Shown here one piece after another: positions 47,296-62,780 of a stretch of 64,000 nucleotides of DNA (its first letter is position 1; every line of letters starts with the position of its first letter). The translations under genes and the position numbers were made by a program. The notes under the pieces are model-generated. The model made no database searches and was not told where the DNA came from. It saw only the letters and a program-made list of their open reading frames with translations. Source of the DNA: Parietichytrium sp. I65-24A (lineage: Eukaryota; Sar; Bigyra; Thraustochytrida; Thraustochytriidae); contig BLSF01000092.1 in assembly GCA_012862575.1 (NCBI GenBank), positions 1 through 64,000 of the forward strand, given 5' to 3'.

Positions 47296-47438
47296 GTTCA
47301 ACTTGAACGTGTTCAACTTGGAAACCGTGCACAGTGAAGAGAAAGCGGCCAATTGCGAAGAGGTGCGAATTGTAGTTGCTTGCTTTGCTTCCTTTGCTTG
47401 CGCGCAGGAAGAGCTCGAGAGAGTGCGAAGAAGGAGCG

Positions 47439-48397
47439 ATGGGCGGAGGGGTTTCCAAGGATAACCAGACAGAACTGGCGAAAGCCGTGGAGGATGAGAA
47501 GAAGAAACCAATCGATGCCGTGGATATCAACACGCCCCGCGGCGTATCCGCAGTGGAAGAGGTGAAGAGGCTCCGATCGCTGCTCGCCAAGGTTGAGCTC
47601 GAGCAGATCGTCATGGCCAAAGCGCTGATGGGCAATGCGCCGTCGCTGCAAGAGTACTTTCAGACCGTCTTCGCAAAGTGGGACGAGGACAAGAATGGGC
47701 ACTTGTCCCCCGCAGAGTTCTGGAGCATGATGGACGCGCTTAAGCTCAACCTCTCGCAGGAGGAGGTGGAAGAGCTTCAGCGCCTGACCGATCTCGACAC
47801 AGACGGCAATGTCTCGCTTGAGGAATTCTCCAAAGCGGCGCCGGGATTCCTGAAGCAGGCGTCGGAGAAGCATGAGGAGTCGCCTCAGCTGGACTGGATG
47901 CAGCTGGAGACCGAGGACGGCCACGCGTACTTTTACAACAAGCGCACTGAGGAGAGCCGGTAAGTCGTGCGCAGCATGATAGAGGTGAATGTTTAGAATT
48001 TAGATTTTTGTGTGGTGACGCTAACAACTTGAAATCGTGTTGCAGGTGGGAGGCACCGGAAGAGTACCTGCGAAACATGGACGCAGCAGCGCAGCAAAAG
48101 GAAAGCGAAATGGATTTTGACTTGAAGGAATACCTGGTGAACGCCTTTACTGAATTTGATGTCGATAAATCAGGGCTTTTAGACGCCGACGAATTCTGGA
48201 ACCTCTTGCAGCACCAAACAAACCTCGGCTTTCAAGAGGAGGACTTTGAGAAGTTGCGCGCTATCATAGACGCCGATAGTGACGGTAAGATCCGCTGGCA
48301 AGAATTCGTCCTTGCGGCCGAAAGCCTTCTTAACCAAATTCACCAAAAGTACAGATCCGCCGACGCCAGCGCCGAGCCGGAGCCTTCATCCGAATAA
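47439..48397 (+). CDS. EF-hand/WW domain protein, predicted N-myristoylated
   Basis: Exons 47439-47959 and 48046-48397 (290 residues) with an 86-nt intron (GTAAGT...TTGCAG, branch CTAAC) that splits the WW domain. The start MGGGVSKD fits the N-myristoylation consensus (Gly2, Ser6), suggesting membrane anchoring. Four EF-hand loops are visible: DEDKNGHLSPAE (about residue 82), DTDGNVSLEE (about 118), DVDKSGLLDADE (about 214) and DADSDGKIRWQE (about 251). Between the pairs lies a WW domain (about 151-180: first Trp in LDWMQL, Tyr pair in AYFYN, second Trp in RWEAP). The layout EF-EF-WW-EF-EF suggests Ca2+-dependent control of a proline-rich ligand interaction. Specific function unknown. Confidence 0.88.
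47960..48045 (+). other. Intron of the EF-hand/WW gene
   Basis: 86 nt; donor GTAAGT, branch GCTAAC, acceptor TTGCAG. The join restores the second WW tryptophan. Confidence 0.92.
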
Positions 48398-53278: not shown

Positions 53279-55240
53279 TCAAGAAACTGCTGGCGGCGGA
53301 GGCATGAGCGAGTCCGAATGCGCAGTGGAACCATATTCGCTTGGTCTGTGCCAATAGCCGCCGTTCTGATGGCTATGACCGTGGCTTTCATACATAGGAA
53401 GCTCATCGTCAAGCAGAGGCTCAGTCTCCGCGATCGGCGGCAGCCCGACACTATCCTCGTCGTCGAACGGTTCGGCGGTTTGCAATGCGAACGCGATAGC
53501 CGTTGATACACGACGAAAGCCGAGACCGAGATATTTGATCGCCCCTTGCTCTTCCGCGTCCACTCCGGCGTCGTTGAAAAATACTCCTGAAAAGACCAGC
53601 GGCAGGAAAAAGACCAGCAGCATGAAATTGCGCCCTGTGGTTTGCCGCAGGCCCACGTGCTCATCGATGAGGTACCAGAAGCCAGTGATATTCAAGAAAT
53701 TGCCCAAGAGACCGAGGTACTCCACCAGCCACGACCAAATCAACCCGAGCCCCTTCGTGCGATCGAGCACATAGCCAAATGGAAGGTGTAGATCCACCTG
53801 TGCAGCCACATTTCGCGTGGGCTCCACGCACGAGTGGATCAGGAAAGTCTGCGTCAAAAGCATCAGCGCGAGTCCGACACCCATAAACATCAATTCGTGC
53901 TGCGCGCCAGGAAAGTCCGGAAATTTCAGCCGAACAGCGTGTAAAACGAGCCAATGATTAATTTCTTCCAAGTCTTGTTCGAATGCGTCACCGCTCTCCT
54001 TGTCCAGCCCCATCTCTGCGCGGGCTTTGCCCGGGAAGAGCCAAATTTGGCAAATGCGATCCACCCCAAGCCACGAACAAGACTGCATGAACAGACTGAG
54101 GAGGGAAAGCACAGCATAACGCATATTTGCCACCCTCTGCCTAGCTTTGATATGGCTCATAATCCTTCGAAGACGCGACTTCATCGTCATTTGAGGGGTA
54201 AACTCCGGCAAGAGCTCGTCGAGCTCCTCTCGCACCTCTTCCTGTGTGGTGGGCTCTTCCCAAGGCTCGATGACCACCATTGAGCCAGGGTCTAAAAGGG
54301 AAGAGATGTGAACGACACGTTGCGGCTCGGGAATCGTGACGCCTAGGATCACCTGCTCATCTGCATCTGCCTCGCCTTCCATCACCTCAATCGAGAGGCC
54401 CACTTTGTAGTACTCGTAATACACAATGACGGAGGTGAACCCGGCCAAGCCGAAGAGCATGATGCAAATGTCCTTGATCGGATGTGGGTCAATTTGGCTC
54501 ACAAACACTTGAATGAACATGTACATCCCACACGTGCAGCAGACCTGCCCAAAGTACGCAATCATTCCGCGGAGAGCCAACAGCACATTTGACTCCACTC
54601 TCTCGCTCCAGTACCTTTCGATACTGGAAAACATCGGGTCGTCAGGAGCCACCACCTGACCATTCTGCAGCAACGACCCGGCCAGATAAGCGAGTGAGAT
54701 GCCCAGAACCATCAGGCAAATTGGCAGCCAGTACGCTGGGGCCGTGCACTGATACCCGTCATCATTATCCAAAATACTTCGGCAGTCCAGCAGACCCACG
54801 CCAGTCAAACTCAGATTGTTCCAGATAGCAACCCACGAACCCACGCTCGAATATACGGCCACCACTCCGATGCTGTACAATGCTGCCAGACGCATAGCCG
54901 ATTTGCGAACCGAGATCTCACCATCCTTGTCCATCCAGTCTGCCGCAGGATGTTCGCAATTAGCCAATGCGCAGTCATGCTCAAAGTCGTACTGGCATGT
55001 GGAATGCGAAACTGTCGTCCCTCGCTCCCGGAATGACCTACCGCTGCGCCTGCTGCGGTGGCTGCGTCTGGCTGCCGACATTCGCGAAGTGCGAGTGTTT
55101 CTGTCATCTTCCTCGTCCTCATCCTCTTCTTCATCCTCCTCTTCCGTCTCCTCTCCTTCGCGTCCGCGGGCGCCTGTCCATCGAACTTCACGGGCCATAC
55201 CGTCTGAAGCTACCAGCGGCTCTCGGAGCCCAGATTGCAT
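53279..55240 (-). CDS. Multi-pass membrane protein, unknown family
   Basis: 653 residues, ATG at 55240. The cytosolic N-terminus has a REPLVAS start, an acidic stretch (EETEEEDEEEDEDEEDD, about 30-47) and an Arg/Ser-rich stretch. About eight membrane segments are visible at roughly 118-140, 168-190, 220-247, 255-278, 380-405, 455-478, 500-528 and 540-560, with a soluble loop of about 100 residues (280-380) between the fourth and fifth. The region after the first segment contains Cys pairs (NLSLTGVGLLDC, DDGYQC) that could form an extracellular or lumenal disulfide. The C-terminus contains an acidic dileucine-like ETEPLLDDE, a sorting signal for endosomes or lysosome-like vacuoles. Not recognised; a channel, receptor or transporter is possible. 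Confidence 0.78.
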   Translation of the reverse strand: MQSGLREPLVASDGMAREVRWTGARGREGEETEEEDEEEDEDEEDDRNTRTSRMSAARRSHRSRRSGRSFRERGTTVSHSTCQYDFEHDCALANCEHPAADWMDKDGEISVRKSAMRLAALYSIGVVAVYSSVGSWVAIWNNLSLTGVGLLDCRSILDNDDGYQCTAPAYWLPICLMVLGISLAYLAGSLLQNGQVVAPDDPMFSSIERYWSERVESNVLLALRGMIAYFGQVCCTCGMYMFIQVFVSQIDPHPIKDICIMLFGLAGFTSVIVYYEYYKVGLSIEVMEGEADADEQVILGVTIPEPQRVVHISSLLDPGSMVVIEPWEEPTTQEEVREELDELLPEFTPQMTMKSRLRRIMSHIKARQRVANMRYAVLSLLSLFMQSCSWLGVDRICQIWLFPGKARAEMGLDKESGDAFEQDLEEINHWLVLHAVRLKFPDFPGAQHELMFMGVGLALMLLTQTFLIHSCVEPTRNVAAQVDLHLPFGYVLDRTKGLGLIWSWLVEYLGLLGNFLNITGFWYLIDEHVGLRQTTGRNFMLLVFFLPLVFSGVFFNDAGVDAEEQGAIKYLGLGFRRVSTAIAFALQTAEPFDDEDSVGLPPIAETEPLLDDELPMYESHGHSHQNGGYWHRPSEYGSTAHSDSLMPPPPAVS

Positions 55241-56419
55241 GAATCGCGCTCGCGAAGCAACGCTCTTACGCTCTCCTCCAACGGGCTCTTACCTACCACG
55301 TGCGATATACGATCTAAAAATTTGCGTCCTTCCGTTGCGAGATTAGCTCTTCTTCGCGCAAATACCCAAATACAACACGAGTAAACTCGAACGAGCAAGC
55401 CCCTGAATGCCTCGGCGCAGGCTCGCGAGTTGGTGTATGCCCTACTCACCAGCTCAACCCTGACCCATAAACAATAACCGATGACCCAGTGACCAATGCC
55501 ACTGTCGTTTCCACTGATCCACCCGCAAGCAAGGCAACACAAGCAAGCAAGCAAGCAAAGCACGTACGCCCGAACGAACGAACGAACGAACGAACGGTGA
55601 CACGGAGGAACCTCCCGCCCTCTGTCCTCAACTGCCGCTACCTGGCAAGACCACCCTGCACTGTGTGACGCCCCGAGGCGGCTAATTTCGACGGCCACAC
55701 ACAACCCCAACCCCAATCCCAAACGCCACGCGTCGTGTGCGCGCTGAGGTTTGTCGTTCACCAGCTCCACGTGAACTCTGCGAGCTGTGCGAGCCCTGCG
55801 AGCTGTGTGTCTGTTCGCTTGATCGATTATGATCGATTATGATCGATTGATCGATTGATTGTTCATTGATTGATGGATAAGACAAGTAACAGGTGTAAAG
55901 ACTACATACACTTGGGCACTGTCAGAACTGTCAGTGCGTAGCTCAAGTAGTTGAGCATCAAGAACATCAGGGCGTCAGCAGCAAGGCGCCTAAGACCTTG
56001 CTCACAAGGCTGAATGAAGCAAGACCAGCATGTAAAGAATGTAAAGTTTAGTTTGTTTAGTTGTTTGTATCTTGATCATTTGAGGCAAGACAGCGCCAAC
56101 GTGTGTCCGCGAGTGAGCCTCTCAGTACTCGCCTACAGGGTAGCGTACGTACGCGCTGGATAACTGCAGCACTGTACGCACAAGTTGCCAGAGGTCGGGC
56201 CGGTCACTGGAATCTCGCTTGGTCCGCGGTGGCGTGACACTGGGACTCGGGACTCATACAACGCGAAAGTGTCCTAGACTGTGGACGAAGACGAGAAAGG
56301 CTTGATTGAAAGCGGGCACGGGGCCAAGATTGGAGCAGAAAGGGGGCTGGGACGCTGGGCAACTGGGCAGAAGTGTTAGTGGGTAGTTTTGATCGGAGCA
56401 GGTTTGTCACTGTCTCGAA
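55241..56419. other. Divergent intergenic region with microsatellites
   Basis: Contains AAGC (55541-55559) and GAAC (55571-55597) tetranucleotide runs and a GATCGATT/ATGATCGATT tandem at about 55820-55870. No gene is supported. Confidence 0.5.
55541..55597. repeat. AAGC and GAAC tetranucleotide microsatellites
   Basis: About five AAGC units, a short spacer with CACGTACG, then about six GAAC units. Confidence 0.85.
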
Positions 56420-58341
56420 ATGTTCGACATAGTGCTCAGGAGCTCGTCGGCCGGGAAGGCTATTTGGAATGCACGCGGAGGAATGAGCGGGTTGCGCAGC
56501 AGCGGCCTGGTGCCATGGCCATGGAGGCTTCAGCAGCAGCGGCGGCTGGTGTGGGACAGGGTCAGAGGAGCGACAGATGTTCCCCACAAACTGCCAATCT
56601 CAGAGCCGCGCATCCAGAAGATGAGCCACGGGACCTTTGACGTGTTTGTCTTTGACGCACAAGGAAAGTTTGCAAGGCGGCGCATGACAAAAGCGGAGCT
56701 CATTGGGAAAACTCAGCTCAATGCGAGGGATTTGATTGTCTTGGATTCTGGATACCATCGCAGACCTCGCCCCGTGATCCTCGTGCGACCAACGTCGACC
56801 GTAATAAGTTTGGCGTACGTCAGAGCAATTATCCGCCACGACTCAGTATATCTTTTCCACCCAACGATTTCTAGTGTGCAGGCATTCGCGCTTGGTCTGG
56901 GAGAGTTTCTCCAAGGTAAACGGAGCCCATTCTTGCCGCACGTAAATTTGGGCAGCGACGCTAGTTCGCATCCACTCGAATTGCAAGATGACGACGAAGA
57001 AGCGAACGCCATCACGGCAGCGGCGCAGCAGGACTGCAAGTCAGCTCCTGCCCCATTGCCCTACGAATTGCGCGCCTTAGAGGGTATTCTCAGCCATGTT
57101 TCCAGACGATATCACAACAGGACTCTGCTGCTGTCGCCTCTTGTAAAAAGCGTTCTTCATACCCTCAGCTCTAAGCAAGTCGAGCCAGAAATTCTGCACC
57201 AGTTGCTACCAATGAAAGACACGCTCTCGCAGTTTGAAATAGAGACAACACTGATGAGAAATGTTCTCACGGAGCTGATTCACAGCGAAGATGACATGCT
57301 TGAAATGCTCTTGACGGAAAAGGCCGCCAACAATGGGACTCTTCCTGCCCGGGAGCAGCACGAAAAGGTTGAACTGCTCTTGGAAAATTATTGCTCACAG
57401 TTTGTGGACATAGCCCAAGAATCATACTACCTCCGGAAACGAGTCGAGTCTACCCAGAGCATCATTGAGCTCAAATTGGTAAGTTTTTCTTGCTACTACA
57501 CAGCAGGACAAGCCATAGCATGGAGCTCACATACTTTGTCGTGTGTGTACGCGACTCTCGGGCACTTCAGGACACTCATCGCAATTACATGTAAGTTTGG
57601 AGAATGTGGACTTTCCGCATGCACAAATTGGGGGAAAAGGAAGAAGCAAGAGAAGAAATTATCTGACTTCCCACGTGTCACCCCAAAGCCTTCGCGTAAA
57701 TATTCAAATCGCCATTGGGTCTATGGCTATTGGGCTTGGGACTCTCATCTCAGGTTGGTTTGGGGCGAACTTAACAAATGGGATGGAAAGTCATCCCACC
57801 GCGTTTTACTGGCTCGGCGTTCTAACCACAGGAACAATTGTAGGGTTGTTCCAAATTGTCAAGCGCAAGGTGGACACCTCCATCCCGCGGATGCTCGAGG
57901 GGGACCCCTTTGATAGTATTTTTAATCATCTTGACGAGATCCAGCAGATACTCTCTGTGGCACGATCGAGGCTCTACACCAACAATCGTAGCCTAACGAG
58001 GAACGAGCTACAGTCCATGCTCCGCAAAATCGCGGTAAGTTTTTCATTTCACTTTAGCTTGATTCATTCCGTCGAGCGCTACTGACAACACACCGCTCTG
58101 GCATTATGGTTGGCCAATGCAATTTGGAATACAATAGGGAGTTAAGGTCTCCGATGAAGACCTGGATATTATATACAACACGTTTGACCTCGATCGCGAC
58201 GGAGTCCTCACAAGCGAAGAAGTCTCACGCGGGGGCGAAGCATCAATTTCAAGCGACAAAGAACTCCGAAAGCTAGAGTGGGTCAAATCGAGGGAGCTCT
58301 CCGGAATGCACATTAAGACAAGACGCGCACCAAGCTTTTGA
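56420..58341 (+). CDS. MRS2/CorA-type Mg2+ channel fused to C-terminal EF-hand
   Basis: Four exons predicted: 56420-57478, 57569-57588, 57689-58034, 58138-58341 (1629 nt, 542 residues); introns 90, 100 and 103 nt, all with GTAAGT donors and matching phases. The N-terminus (MFDIVLRSSSAGKAIWNARG) is Arg-rich and acid-poor, suggesting mitochondrial import. The MRS2 family core follows (FDAQGKFARRRMTKAEL, RDLIVLDSGYHRRP, LPYELRALEGIL, PMKDTLSQFEIE, DDMLEMLLTEKA). Two membrane segments are at the end: VNIQIAIGSMAIGLGTLISG and FYWLGVLTTGTIVGLFQI. The pore signature after the first reads WFGANL rather than the usual GMN. After an MLEGDPFDSIFNHLDEIQQI helix the last exon encodes a canonical EF-hand loop (DLDRDGVLTSEE) preceded by a degenerate partner. 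Likely a mitochondrial inner-membrane Mg2+ channel with a Ca2+-sensing tail. Confidence 0.85.
57479..57568 (+). other. Intron 1 of the MRS2-EF gene
   Basis: 90 nt; GTAAGT donor, CACTTCAG acceptor, phase 0. Confidence 0.85.
57569..57588 (+). other. 20-nt microexon of the MRS2-EF gene
   Basis: Encodes DTHRNY and two bases of the next codon. It is needed to connect the coiled helix to the first membrane segment with an Arg-Asn pair typical of this position in MRS2/CorA proteins. Confidence 0.75.
57589..57688 (+). other. Intron 2 of the MRS2-EF gene
   Basis: 100 nt; GTAAGT donor, CTGAC branch-like site, CCAAAG acceptor, phase 2. Confidence 0.8.
58035..58137 (+). other. Intron 3 of the MRS2-EF gene
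   Basis: 103 nt; GTAAGT donor, CTGAC branch-like site, CAATAG acceptor, phase 0. Without this splice translation would stop in the intron at 58083 and the EF-hand exon would be lost. Confidence 0.82.
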
Positions 58342-58551: not shown

Positions 58552-61500
58552 TCAGTCGCTGGAGAATATGGAAACTGGGGGAACGTCCCAAGGTACCTTC
58601 TTTCCAGAAGGCAGCTTAGCTTTGCGCACAACCCGGATTCCCTTTTTGTGGACTGGACCGTCCAAAATATCCTGGATTTTGTCCAATTGGGACGGCTTCA
58701 AGTCATGAATGCCATGGTGAGAGACGAACGAAGTGTTATCAACTACCACCTTGTCTTTCCAAGCCTGCTTTTCGCGTGCAACAGCCAACTTTCGCTCCTG
58801 CTCAACACCATCACCGCCCATATGCACGGATTGGAAAAAGTCCGGATTTTTGGTTCCGTCCTGGTTGTACCCACCGAAGACCTCATAGTCATTCGTCGGC
58901 ATGCAATCAAAATTCGATTCTGACTTGGTCCTGAACTCCCGTTTCTCCTCCCAAGGAACCTTTAACTCCTCTGACCTAGCCTCGCTAACTTCAAGACCAC
59001 GTCTCCTGTCTTCCTCAAGAGAGCGGGCCACTGGATACACGAAGCCCCGCTTGGTGATAAATTGGTCTCGCGCACGCTGAGCCTCGTCGCGAGCGACTTG
59101 ATCCTCATTGACCAAGCTGAATCCAAGACTCTGAAAGTCCTTAGAGTACGTGTACGTCGCGTTCTTGTGTTTGGACAGCTTCTTGCGCAACGCTTCTTGA
59201 CTTTTCTCCACAAAGTTGAGTTTTTGGCCAGAGTATGTGAATATCTCTCCGTTTGGCCCACCAAACTGGCGCACCAGTTCCTCATCTGCATCTCTTCTTC
59301 GTTCCATACGCTCTTCGAATTCTTTACGAACTTTTGCTTGTTCCACTCGGCTCTCCGCCAAAAAGTCTCTTGTAGTACGATTCGCGATTGCTCGCTCGAA
59401 TTCCGGGTTGCACGACACGGTTGGACCTTTGAGGCGACTGTTCGCGAAGCCACCATCCTTCTCTTCAACATTACATCTAGAGTCCTCAATCTGATTTGAG
59501 CTTGCAGGAATCGGGCTGGTCTCATGGGAGGGTCTCTGAGAGAGTTTGACTGATCTTCTTCGAGCTGCAGCTGGAACCCCGTCAAGGTCCTCTATTGATA
59601 CACTTTCGCCGTATTTGGACTCGAGCTTGGAGAGCATCTCCACGGTCGGGAAACTTTGTGTTCTTGACAAGCGCTTGCTTCGGGTGACACTTCTCAGAGC
59701 AGTCAAAAGGAGAAGAGCTTGTCTGCACGTCTCTTCGACTTTAAACGAGTCATAGATGTCAGGAGAGAGCATGATGTAACGCAGCGGATCACGCAGCCGA
59801 ATTACCTTGAGATCAACGTCAAAAGATGCGTAAAGCCTGTTCACGTAGCGCACCTGGGAATTACTGATGACTCGAACTTGGTCAGTGTTTCGGATTCGCG
59901 GGAGTGAGTTGAGAAACCTGGTTATCGAGCCGTCTCCAACGCCCTCAACGACTATAATTCGAAATTCGTCGTCCAACACCTGAAATCCAGTGAGAATATC
60001 GAGCTCCCCGTTGTTGGCAGACTGCCGTTCGTCCTCTCGAAGCTGATACGACCGTAGACTTTCCACGTGAGGCACTGCCTGCTGGTTGATTTCGTTGTAC
60101 GTCTTCCGAAGAAGAGTCATCATATCCCTGTTGCGGTATTCCATTAAAACAACAACTCGCTCAAATAATGGTGCGCGTACGCCCAAGGTACGAGTTGCAC
60201 GGGTTACAATTGCCGATGACGGAACGGTGTTGGTGTCTTCCAAACACAGACGAGCATTCTGGGATTCTATTGAGAGATGGTGGTGATGCAACGGAACGGA
60301 TATACTTGCGCTCAGACGAACTTGCGTGTCAGCTTCGAAATAGCGGCCAGGCTGCCTCACGAGATATTCAACCTCCGAAAGGTCGAGCTCTGCCCTTTCC
60401 ACTTCTCCTCCAACCGGAATTTTACGCTTTCTCGGAGCAACAGTCGCTCGCAGCGAGACGCTTGCCGCTTTGTTGCTCTTTCCGAAGGGAGTTTGTCCGA
60501 TACCGTGGAGATCTTTCCTTAGTCTGTTGGCCAACTCTTTGGAGGAGCTCCAGAGCTCATCTAAAGCGAACGTTGCCACACCGCATGCCTGTTGTTCGCT
60601 ATCGCTCTCTATGATATGGGAATACTTGGTCCAAGCCTCTCTATCAAGGTCTGCAATAATTTTCTGCAGCTCCGGGGCTGCGGGTTCCGAAGAGGTTGCT
60701 TCAAGCGCATCCTTGTCCTTCTGTGCAGGTGCCTTCTTGTCCTTCTGTTTTGCCGAGTTTGTCGCTTCTTTCCGGGCGCTGAGAAGACTCTCTTGGCTGG
60801 CGACGTCTGCATACTTTCCGCTCATTTCCTCTACCAATGCTTTCACAGCATTCGTTGTTGTTACCAGTCGCACGTCCCGGTCGTGAAGAGTGACAGTGAC
60901 TGGCTCGCTCTCCAGCTGCTCTGCAAATTTGTCTCGACTCAAACTTCCGACCAGTATGGTGGTCTTTAGTCGCATATGCACGTGTTTCGCACCTTGTTGA
61001 TAGCCTACGCTGCGGATAAGACGCTCTTGTGGAATGGCAGACTTAAAAATCGTCATGCGAGCGTAGATCGGTTCGCAATAGCGCTTGACCAGGAGGAACG
61101 GGTCTCTCAGGCCAGTCTCCTTGTCTTGAATACAGCTTTCCATCTTTGGATTCCCGTGCTCCACGATTGTTCCGGGCAATGCTTTCACGGAAGTTATTTC
61201 AAGTGTCAAAGGGTTGAGAAGGCTGGTTAGTTGCTCAGATAATATGGCGGATTCCGCAACTACTGAGATGCGAACTGCGTCGATCATGTCTGTGCAAAAG
61301 TTTGGCGGGGCAACTAGGTGATTTGAATCTCCAAATTGGCCCCACTGACCACTCAGTTGGAGCTCCCCATCAAGTAACGGAGACGCGTCCATCGAGAATG
61401 CGCCAATCCACTCCTCTTTGCTATTGCAAGCGCTTATGACCAAGGTGGAGTCATCGTTTAACCGATTGGCCCACGCTGCGTCCACGCACACGTCGAATGG

Positions 61501-61890
61501 ATAGGCCCAGTTCAACGTAACGACCTCATCCAAATTCTGCTCGCCTGGCTCAGCTTCTCCGCTCTCGGAGATTGTTGCTGCTTGCTGGTCCTCATCCACA
61601 ACTTCAAATGGATCGATGCTATTTGCATCGCCCCGTCTCCAAGTCTTCAAACCGTCGGACACCACAAGCTTCTCGGTCCCAGGAAACACGAATCGAAATT
61701 TAAGCCCATCTTTCCCAGCCTCATCTCCATCTCCCGCGTCGACGATTTCCCGCAGAGCCACTCGAACGCTGATCATAACTGCAAGTTTGACCTGCTTGAA
61801 GTCTCCAGCAGCTTCACCTTGTGACGCCTCATCTTGCCCTTCCATCTGCTCTGGAGGCTGGTGGGCCTCGTCACTTGTCTTTGGCGCCAT
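58552..61890 (-). CDS. CFAP92/KIAA1257-like flagellar protein (tentative)
   Basis: 1112 residues from the ATG at 61890 (MAPKTSDEAHQPPEQM); the frame is open upstream to 62100 with other possible starts. The first third has C2-like beta-rich blocks (VKLAVMISVRVALREIV, ITSVKALPGTIVEHGNPK). A VTVTLHDRDVRLVTTT segment (about residue 330) and a Lys-rich low-complexity insert follow. The central part (about 480-800) includes LDILTGFQVLDDEFRIIVVEG and DVDLKVIRLRDPLRYIMLSP. The last 250 residues are charged and helical. This arrangement resembles the DUF4550-containing CFAP92/KIAA1257 family of cilia-associated proteins; I assign it from pattern memory, so orthology is tentative. It faces the MRS2-EF gene tail-to-tail, 210 nt apart. 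Confidence 0.7.
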   Translation of the reverse strand: MAPKTSDEAHQPPEQMEGQDEASQGEAAGDFKQVKLAVMISVRVALREIVDAGDGDEAGKDGLKFRFVFPGTEKLVVSDGLKTWRRGDANSIDPFEVVDEDQQAATISESGEAEPGEQNLDEVVTLNWAYPFDVCVDAAWANRLNDDSTLVISACNSKEEWIGAFSMDASPLLDGELQLSGQWGQFGDSNHLVAPPNFCTDMIDAVRISVVAESAILSEQLTSLLNPLTLEITSVKALPGTIVEHGNPKMESCIQDKETGLRDPFLLVKRYCEPIYARMTIFKSAIPQERLIRSVGYQQGAKHVHMRLKTTILVGSLSRDKFAEQLESEPVTVTLHDRDVRLVTTTNAVKALVEEMSGKYADVASQESLLSARKEATNSAKQKDKKAPAQKDKDALEATSSEPAAPELQKIIADLDREAWTKYSHIIESDSEQQACGVATFALDELWSSSKELANRLRKDLHGIGQTPFGKSNKAASVSLRATVAPRKRKIPVGGEVERAELDLSEVEYLVRQPGRYFEADTQVRLSASISVPLHHHHLSIESQNARLCLEDTNTVPSSAIVTRATRTLGVRAPLFERVVVLMEYRNRDMMTLLRKTYNEINQQAVPHVESLRSYQLREDERQSANNGELDILTGFQVLDDEFRIIVVEGVGDGSITRFLNSLPRIRNTDQVRVISNSQVRYVNRLYASFDVDLKVIRLRDPLRYIMLSPDIYDSFKVEETCRQALLLLTALRSVTRSKRLSRTQSFPTVEMLSKLESKYGESVSIEDLDGVPAAARRRSVKLSQRPSHETSPIPASSNQIEDSRCNVEEKDGGFANSRLKGPTVSCNPEFERAIANRTTRDFLAESRVEQAKVRKEFEERMERRRDADEELVRQFGGPNGEIFTYSGQKLNFVEKSQEALRKKLSKHKNATYTYSKDFQSLGFSLVNEDQVARDEAQRARDQFITKRGFVYPVARSLEEDRRRGLEVSEARSEELKVPWEEKREFRTKSESNFDCMPTNDYEVFGGYNQDGTKNPDFFQSVHMGGDGVEQERKLAVAREKQAWKDKVVVDNTSFVSHHGIHDLKPSQLDKIQDILDGPVHKKGIRVVRKAKLPSGKKVPWDVPPVSIFSSD

Positions 61891-62780
61891 TTCTCTCCAA
61901 GCACGCCCTTGATACTCTGCTTCAAGCGTCTGCCAAGAAGCCAGCGCTCGCCAATCTCGGCCACTCTTCGTCCGCTGCTTCAAAACTTGTGCGCGAACGA
62001 AAGCAAAGTCAAAAGCCACTTTCTTTGCTCTTCTTATTCTCGCGCTAGAATAGGTATAACATGGGACCATTAAATTTATCCATAATACCTCTTGCAACAA
62101 AATTTCTCAAAAAATTTTCGGAACCCCTAACTGGCACACTATATGTAAACGTTAGTGCCGTGCCTCCGAAAAAGAAATTGTTTACGAAGGTACAGTAGCG
62201 AGCCATTAGAACTACCCAACGGATCAAAATGAAATTGGTAGAGCGATGGTTAAGAATACTTGTACGAGTCTCAGTGAACTTGTGAAACAAAAAACGCACA
62301 AATGAAGATAGAGGTATTCGATATTCGATATGCATATTCGAGCACGTGGCAACAGATCTTCATTGACACAAAGAGAAGGAAAGAGTCCCGTGCTTGACAG
62401 TGAATCGAGTATTCGTCTTCTCTGTCGTCTGGGCGACTCGATGCTCACCATGAAAAAGGTTTTGTTCACTTCAAAGTAGTTCTTGCATTCCACGCACACC
62501 GCTGTTCCTTCACTCGACCGTGTACTTTGGAGCCGCGCAGCGTTGAAATCGGTGTGTACCTTGAGACCTTGGCTCCCTTGGCTGTGAGCTTACTGGCAAG
62601 AAAGTCGGACTAGTTTACAACTCAACGGCAAAGTGTAAGGCTCTAGTCGAACGCAAAACAATTATTGGTGCTGGTACAATTGAGTTGGCACAAGCTCCTT
62701 ACTCATTGAAACACAGATTTGGCGGGCAGACGCTTCAGCAGAAGGAGGGATCGCGCGCGCTGCCGGGCACAGAAGCAAAC
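61891..62780. other. Divergent intergenic region, nothing recognised
   Basis: Upstream region shared by the CFAP92-like gene and the truncated plus-strand gene. The plus frame is open for about 25 codons before the ATG at 62781, so an upstream exon ending in an AAACACAG acceptor cannot be excluded. Confidence 0.35.

Follow-up and report, generated by a model that had tools for sequence, protein, structure and literature searches.

We present a gene of the thraustochytrid Parietichytrium sp. I65-24A that is best read, from its sequence, as encoding a mitochondrial-type MRS2 channel with a pair of EF-hands at its C-terminus, one of them canonical, and with GAN in place of GMN in its selectivity filter. 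The gene lies in a 64,000-nucleotide stretch of contig BLSF01000092.1, referred to here as the window. The combination suggests that this protein may not share the ion choice and control of the MRS2 proteins known so far. For human MRS2 it is debated whether Ca2+ controls the entry of Mg2+ into mitochondria, and in what way; an MRS2 that naturally has both an EF-hand and an altered filter would make the Ca2+ link and the role of the GMN methionine testable in one protein.

That Ca2+ can control an MRS2 protein would not in itself be novel, as human MRS2, which has no EF-hand, is reported to be Ca2+-regulated (He et al. 2025, cited in PMC13022745), and Ca2+ binding by its N-terminal domain is described as weak, at about 1 mM (PMC9909464). 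A fusion of MRS2 or CorA to an EF-hand was not apparent in the literature, judged by titles and the starts of abstracts with partial coverage, and such a fusion may well already be listed in public domain databases.

Gene model

The four phase-compatible exons of the original prediction proved exact: they splice in phase into a 542-residue product, and all introns run from GTAAGT to AG (Table 1), with 58034 as the final base of exon 3 and the donor of intron 3 from 58035 onward. The splicing is predicted from the genomic sequence. Judged by homology, the 20-nt exon 2 is real, its residues DTHRNY aligning with LDSHRN of human MRS2 with no gaps over either junction.

Table 1. Predicted exons and introns of the MRS2-EF gene, in positions of the window.
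Feature	Position	Strand	Description
Exon 1	56420..57478	+	Basic N-terminus and MRS2 matrix domain to the start of the stalk helix, residues 1-353; open frame, Pfam PF22099 MRS2-like
Intron 1	57479..57570	+	GTAAGT...CAG, 92 bp; human MRS2 alignment gapless across it
Exon 2	57571..57590	+	20-nt micro-exon: DTHRNY plus two bases, pore-gate segment; D354 and R357 correspond to human D329 and R332
Intron 2	57591..57688	+	GTAAGT...AAG, 98 bp
Exon 3	57689..58034	+	TM1, GAN filter (385-387), TM2 (about 398-416), linker, and the first, degenerate EF-hand with its loop at 455-466 (LYTNNRSLTRNE)
Intron 3	58035..58137	+	GTAAGT...TAG, 103 bp; retention gives a frameshift and a stop
Exon 4	58138..58341	+	Canonical second EF-hand (loop 492-503, DLDRDGVLTSEE), C-terminus and stop codon

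In the genomic DNA the frame of exon 4 differs from that of exon 3, and therefore the second EF-hand needs the splicing of intron 3. The EF-tail cannot be a separate gene, because the transmembrane helices and the first EF-hand lie in one exon; assignment of exon 4 to another gene was considered and rejected, since exon 3 holds the first EF-hand together with these helices.

Channel core and pore

The MRS2-like core and the two membrane helices of the original prediction are supported. The 542-residue protein matches Pfam PF22099 (MRS2-like) with 144.5 bits (E 4e-42, cut-off 27), and two transmembrane segments with a short loop between them lie towards the C-terminal side, with hydropathy maxima at about 359-386 and 398-417 and with support from the alignment to 8ip3. 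The closest solved proteins are Chaetomium Mrs2 (112 bits) and human MRS2 (91 bits), against which two other MRS2 genes of the genome score lower (96 and 61 bits, and 79 and 59 bits). The N-terminal 50 residues include nine Arg or Lys and two acidic residues, which makes this stretch more basic than the N-termini of the paralogues, for which start codons were picked by eye, and the amphipathic moment of this segment as a targeting sequence is modest. A mitochondrial-type MRS2 is the best reading of these features, with the mitochondrial location itself a prediction.

The mitochondrial MRS2 proteins of human, Chaetomium and yeast have in common with this protein the matrix domain, the long stalk helix continuing as TM1, the Arg ring and the two transmembrane helices, as well as the filter Gly and Asn and the Glu facing the intermembrane space (IMS). 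The protein differs from them in having GAN for GMN and an additional C-terminal EF-hand lobe. Mapped on the alignment, the human pore residues D329, R332, N339, filter N362 and IMS E368 are all kept, including the pore Asp (D354) and the pore Arg ring (R357), whereas the human gate residue M336 is replaced by Leu and E369 by Ser. Among the regulatory positions, matrix site 2 is largely kept (human E261, E263, E267, E290, E293 and E297 read E, D, M, E, E and E) and matrix Mg2+ site 1 is not kept at the four positions mapped (E243, T246, D247 and E312 read Q, I, E and Y; E138 was left out); human D216 and D220 are not kept either. In all, two of the matrix Mg2+ sites of human MRS2 are absent. 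Site 1 is seemingly in part not conserved in Chaetomium, according to an alignment judged by eye, and thus its absence is not by itself evidence that control has changed.

Further 2-TM genes of the genome comprise three more MRS2 genes and one CorA-type gene (L006, L007, L008 and L015), and GMN is found in all of them. The three MRS2 genes stop just past TM2, ending in GLLIN or GLLIT, and thus have no tail, and the CorA gene has no EF tail within the portion read. When the same genome was searched with the tail, the matches other than the gene of origin were all weak, with E 1e-5 or worse, and lay in long EF-hand-like open frames. A search for FabA, as a marker of the thraustochytrid PUFA synthase, gave no match. 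Relatives carrying the tail were not found in the viral contigs or prokaryote genomes searched, as expected for a eukaryotic gene.

Selectivity filter

The filter occupies residues 385-387 and is encoded by GGG GCG AAC. It departs from the strict GMN signature and agrees with the looser GxN, after which the superfamily is named (2-TM-GxN; PMC6972854). A simple read error is less likely here, because GCG and ATG differ at two bases. The work of Palombo et al. (2013) is reported to have found that the Met of GMN is required for the integrity of the Thermotoga (T. maritima) CorA pentamer. Both Gly and Asn are kept in GAN, and in the human and Chaetomium structures it is these two residues that coordinate Mg2+, Gly through its carbonyl and Asn through its side chain (PMC10632456, PMC11919701).

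Mutations of GMN are described as abolishing transport or altering selectivity (PMC9909464), the yeast Mrs2 GMN-to-AAA mutant is impaired (PMC11919701), and the natural AMN and GIN variants of cereals complement poorly or not at all (PMC9948656, PMC4613352), with no complementation by those of rice and weak complementation by AMN of maize (PMC9948656). These monocot MRS2/MGT proteins (e.g. OsMRS2-4, -5 and -8) are likewise natural departures from GMN, while in the protein described here it is Met that is replaced, by Ala; an EF-hand is not mentioned for them in the parts of PMC9948656 and PMC4613352 drawn on here. In the parts of the literature on GMN variants drawn on here, we found no report of GAN itself as a tested variant.

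With Ala in place of the filter Met, transport of Mg2+ may be impaired, and the ion selectivity of the channel is probably changed, judging from the filter sequence; the pore may thus be less strict for Mg2+. The original prediction had overlooked this filter. Its assignment to MRS2 stands, but GAN weakens its premise that the channel is an ordinary one for Mg2+, as the natural GMN variants that have been tested lack Mg2+ complementation or show it at a reduced level.

EF-hand tail

A canonical loop with a degenerate partner had been proposed at the C-terminus, and profile and pattern searches agree with this. The tail (residues 422-542) matches EF-hand_7 with 32.7 bits (E 9e-8, cut-off 30), and a PROSITE-type loop pattern occurs at residue 492, with a chance frequency of 354 in 200,000 shuffles of the tail. 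For the full-length product, the domain composition expected from the original prediction was recovered for the MRS2-like part, while EF-hand_7 reached 29.6 bits (E 9e-7), 0.4 bits below the cut-off that it exceeds on the tail. The exon 3 half by itself has no EF-hand_7 match and the exon 4 half scores 19.3 bits, both less than the joined tail.

The first loop begins with Leu and is thus degenerate, and as a Ca2+ binder it is unlikely. The second loop has all canonical ligands, with six of six loop positions fitting the consensus: positions 1, 3 and 5 are Asp, and position 12 is Glu. This is the EF-hand arrangement that prefers Ca2+. As judged from these patterns, the C-terminal EF pair is more than chance and includes one canonical loop, and of the two loops only the second is a likely, predicted Ca2+ site.

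Among the alignments listed, the C-lobe of MICU1 is the best single-domain PDB match to the tail, with one one-residue gap in 70 residues and no gap at the splice junction; the match is weak (19.3 bits, domain E about 0.01), and we do not claim descent of the tail from MICU. In the MICU1 C-lobe, EF3 is degenerate and EF4 canonical, and the two hands of the tail follow the same order, with the odd one first. The lobe described here differs from that of MICU1 in being fused to a channel and in being expected in the matrix rather than in the intermembrane space. A query of the genome with the human MICU1 C-lobe found no clear MICU, although introns may hide one.

Proposed mechanism and alternatives

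We give an about even chance to the reading in which a mitochondrial-type MRS2 subunit carries a MICU-like, single-site EF lobe fused behind TM2, with the lobe modulating gating by matrix Ca2+. Five such subunits, or a mixture with other subunits, would assemble into a pentamer of the inner mitochondrial membrane, and its N-terminal funnel would share the matrix side with the EF lobe. The tail would be placed there because of the topology of MRS2 (PMC10632456 and PMC10404273), from which the earlier proposal that the C-terminus lies on the side of the gating domain would also follow. Most economically, the second EF-hand would become occupied with a rise in matrix Ca2+, and the loaded lobe would then change its packing on the funnel or stalk and so alter opening. 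A coupling of Ca2+ to Mg2+ uptake, as originally suggested, would be a possible consequence of this arrangement. In a more far-reaching version, a Ca2+ sensor within the protein would have replaced feedback by Mg2+ as the means of control, and the channel would be gated by Ca2+ and altered in its selectivity. This version would bring together the missing site 1, the matrix EF lobe and GAN; we regard it as rather improbable.

Other readings concern what the lobe and the filter do. The GAN protein could be a regulatory or altered-selectivity subunit and not the main Mg2+ channel, pairing with another MRS2 or passing other cations, with the EF-hand adding Ca2+ control. This is possible, if doubtful: GMN is kept in the four other 2-TM genes, and the rice AMN and GIN proteins fail to complement, that of maize with AMN is weak (PMC9948656) and the yeast AAA mutant is impaired (PMC11919701), whereas the ion-coordinating Gly carbonyl and Asn side chain are both retained (PMC11919701, PMC10632456) and none of the genes compared looks more mitochondrial by similarity. 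The lobe could also be structural, a Mg2+-occupied or protein-docking module without Ca2+ sensing that is always loaded or always empty in the matrix and serves assembly or as a partner tether. The Leu at position 1 of the first loop would fit this, and free matrix Mg2+ of 0.5-1.5 mM could compete (PMC9909464). We consider it unlikely, given the Ca2+-preferring ligands of the second loop and the example of MICU1, where a lobe of one odd and one canonical hand can be a working Ca2+ sensor.

The gene model might also be wrong at intron 3: the main transcript could keep this intron and stop about 17 codons on, so that the canonical EF-hand is missing, or only some transcripts might include exon 4. 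The weak pyrimidine tract of the 3' splice site speaks for such a misprediction; against it are the consensus GTAAGT donor, a length like those of introns 1 and 2, the preserved phase and the near-gapless EF pair restored by joining exons 3 and 4, and the tail with the intron kept has no family match in the profile search. On balance, we hold this to be very improbable.

Neighbouring open frames

Downstream of the gene, a convergent open frame of 1184 aa (58552-62106, minus strand) ends 211 bp past the MRS2 stop and has no Pfam match at E 0.1; because it ends so close, at 58552, there is little room for another plus-strand gene. Upstream, a 669-aa open frame (53279-55288, minus strand) has several hydrophobic stretches and likewise no Pfam match at E 0.1. 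Farther upstream, an open frame at 47375-47960 on the plus strand contains two canonical EF-hand loops, DEDKNGHLSPAEF and DLDTDGNVSLEEF, and its N-terminus, MGGGVSKD, could be myristoylated; a third EF loop pattern occurs at 48158.
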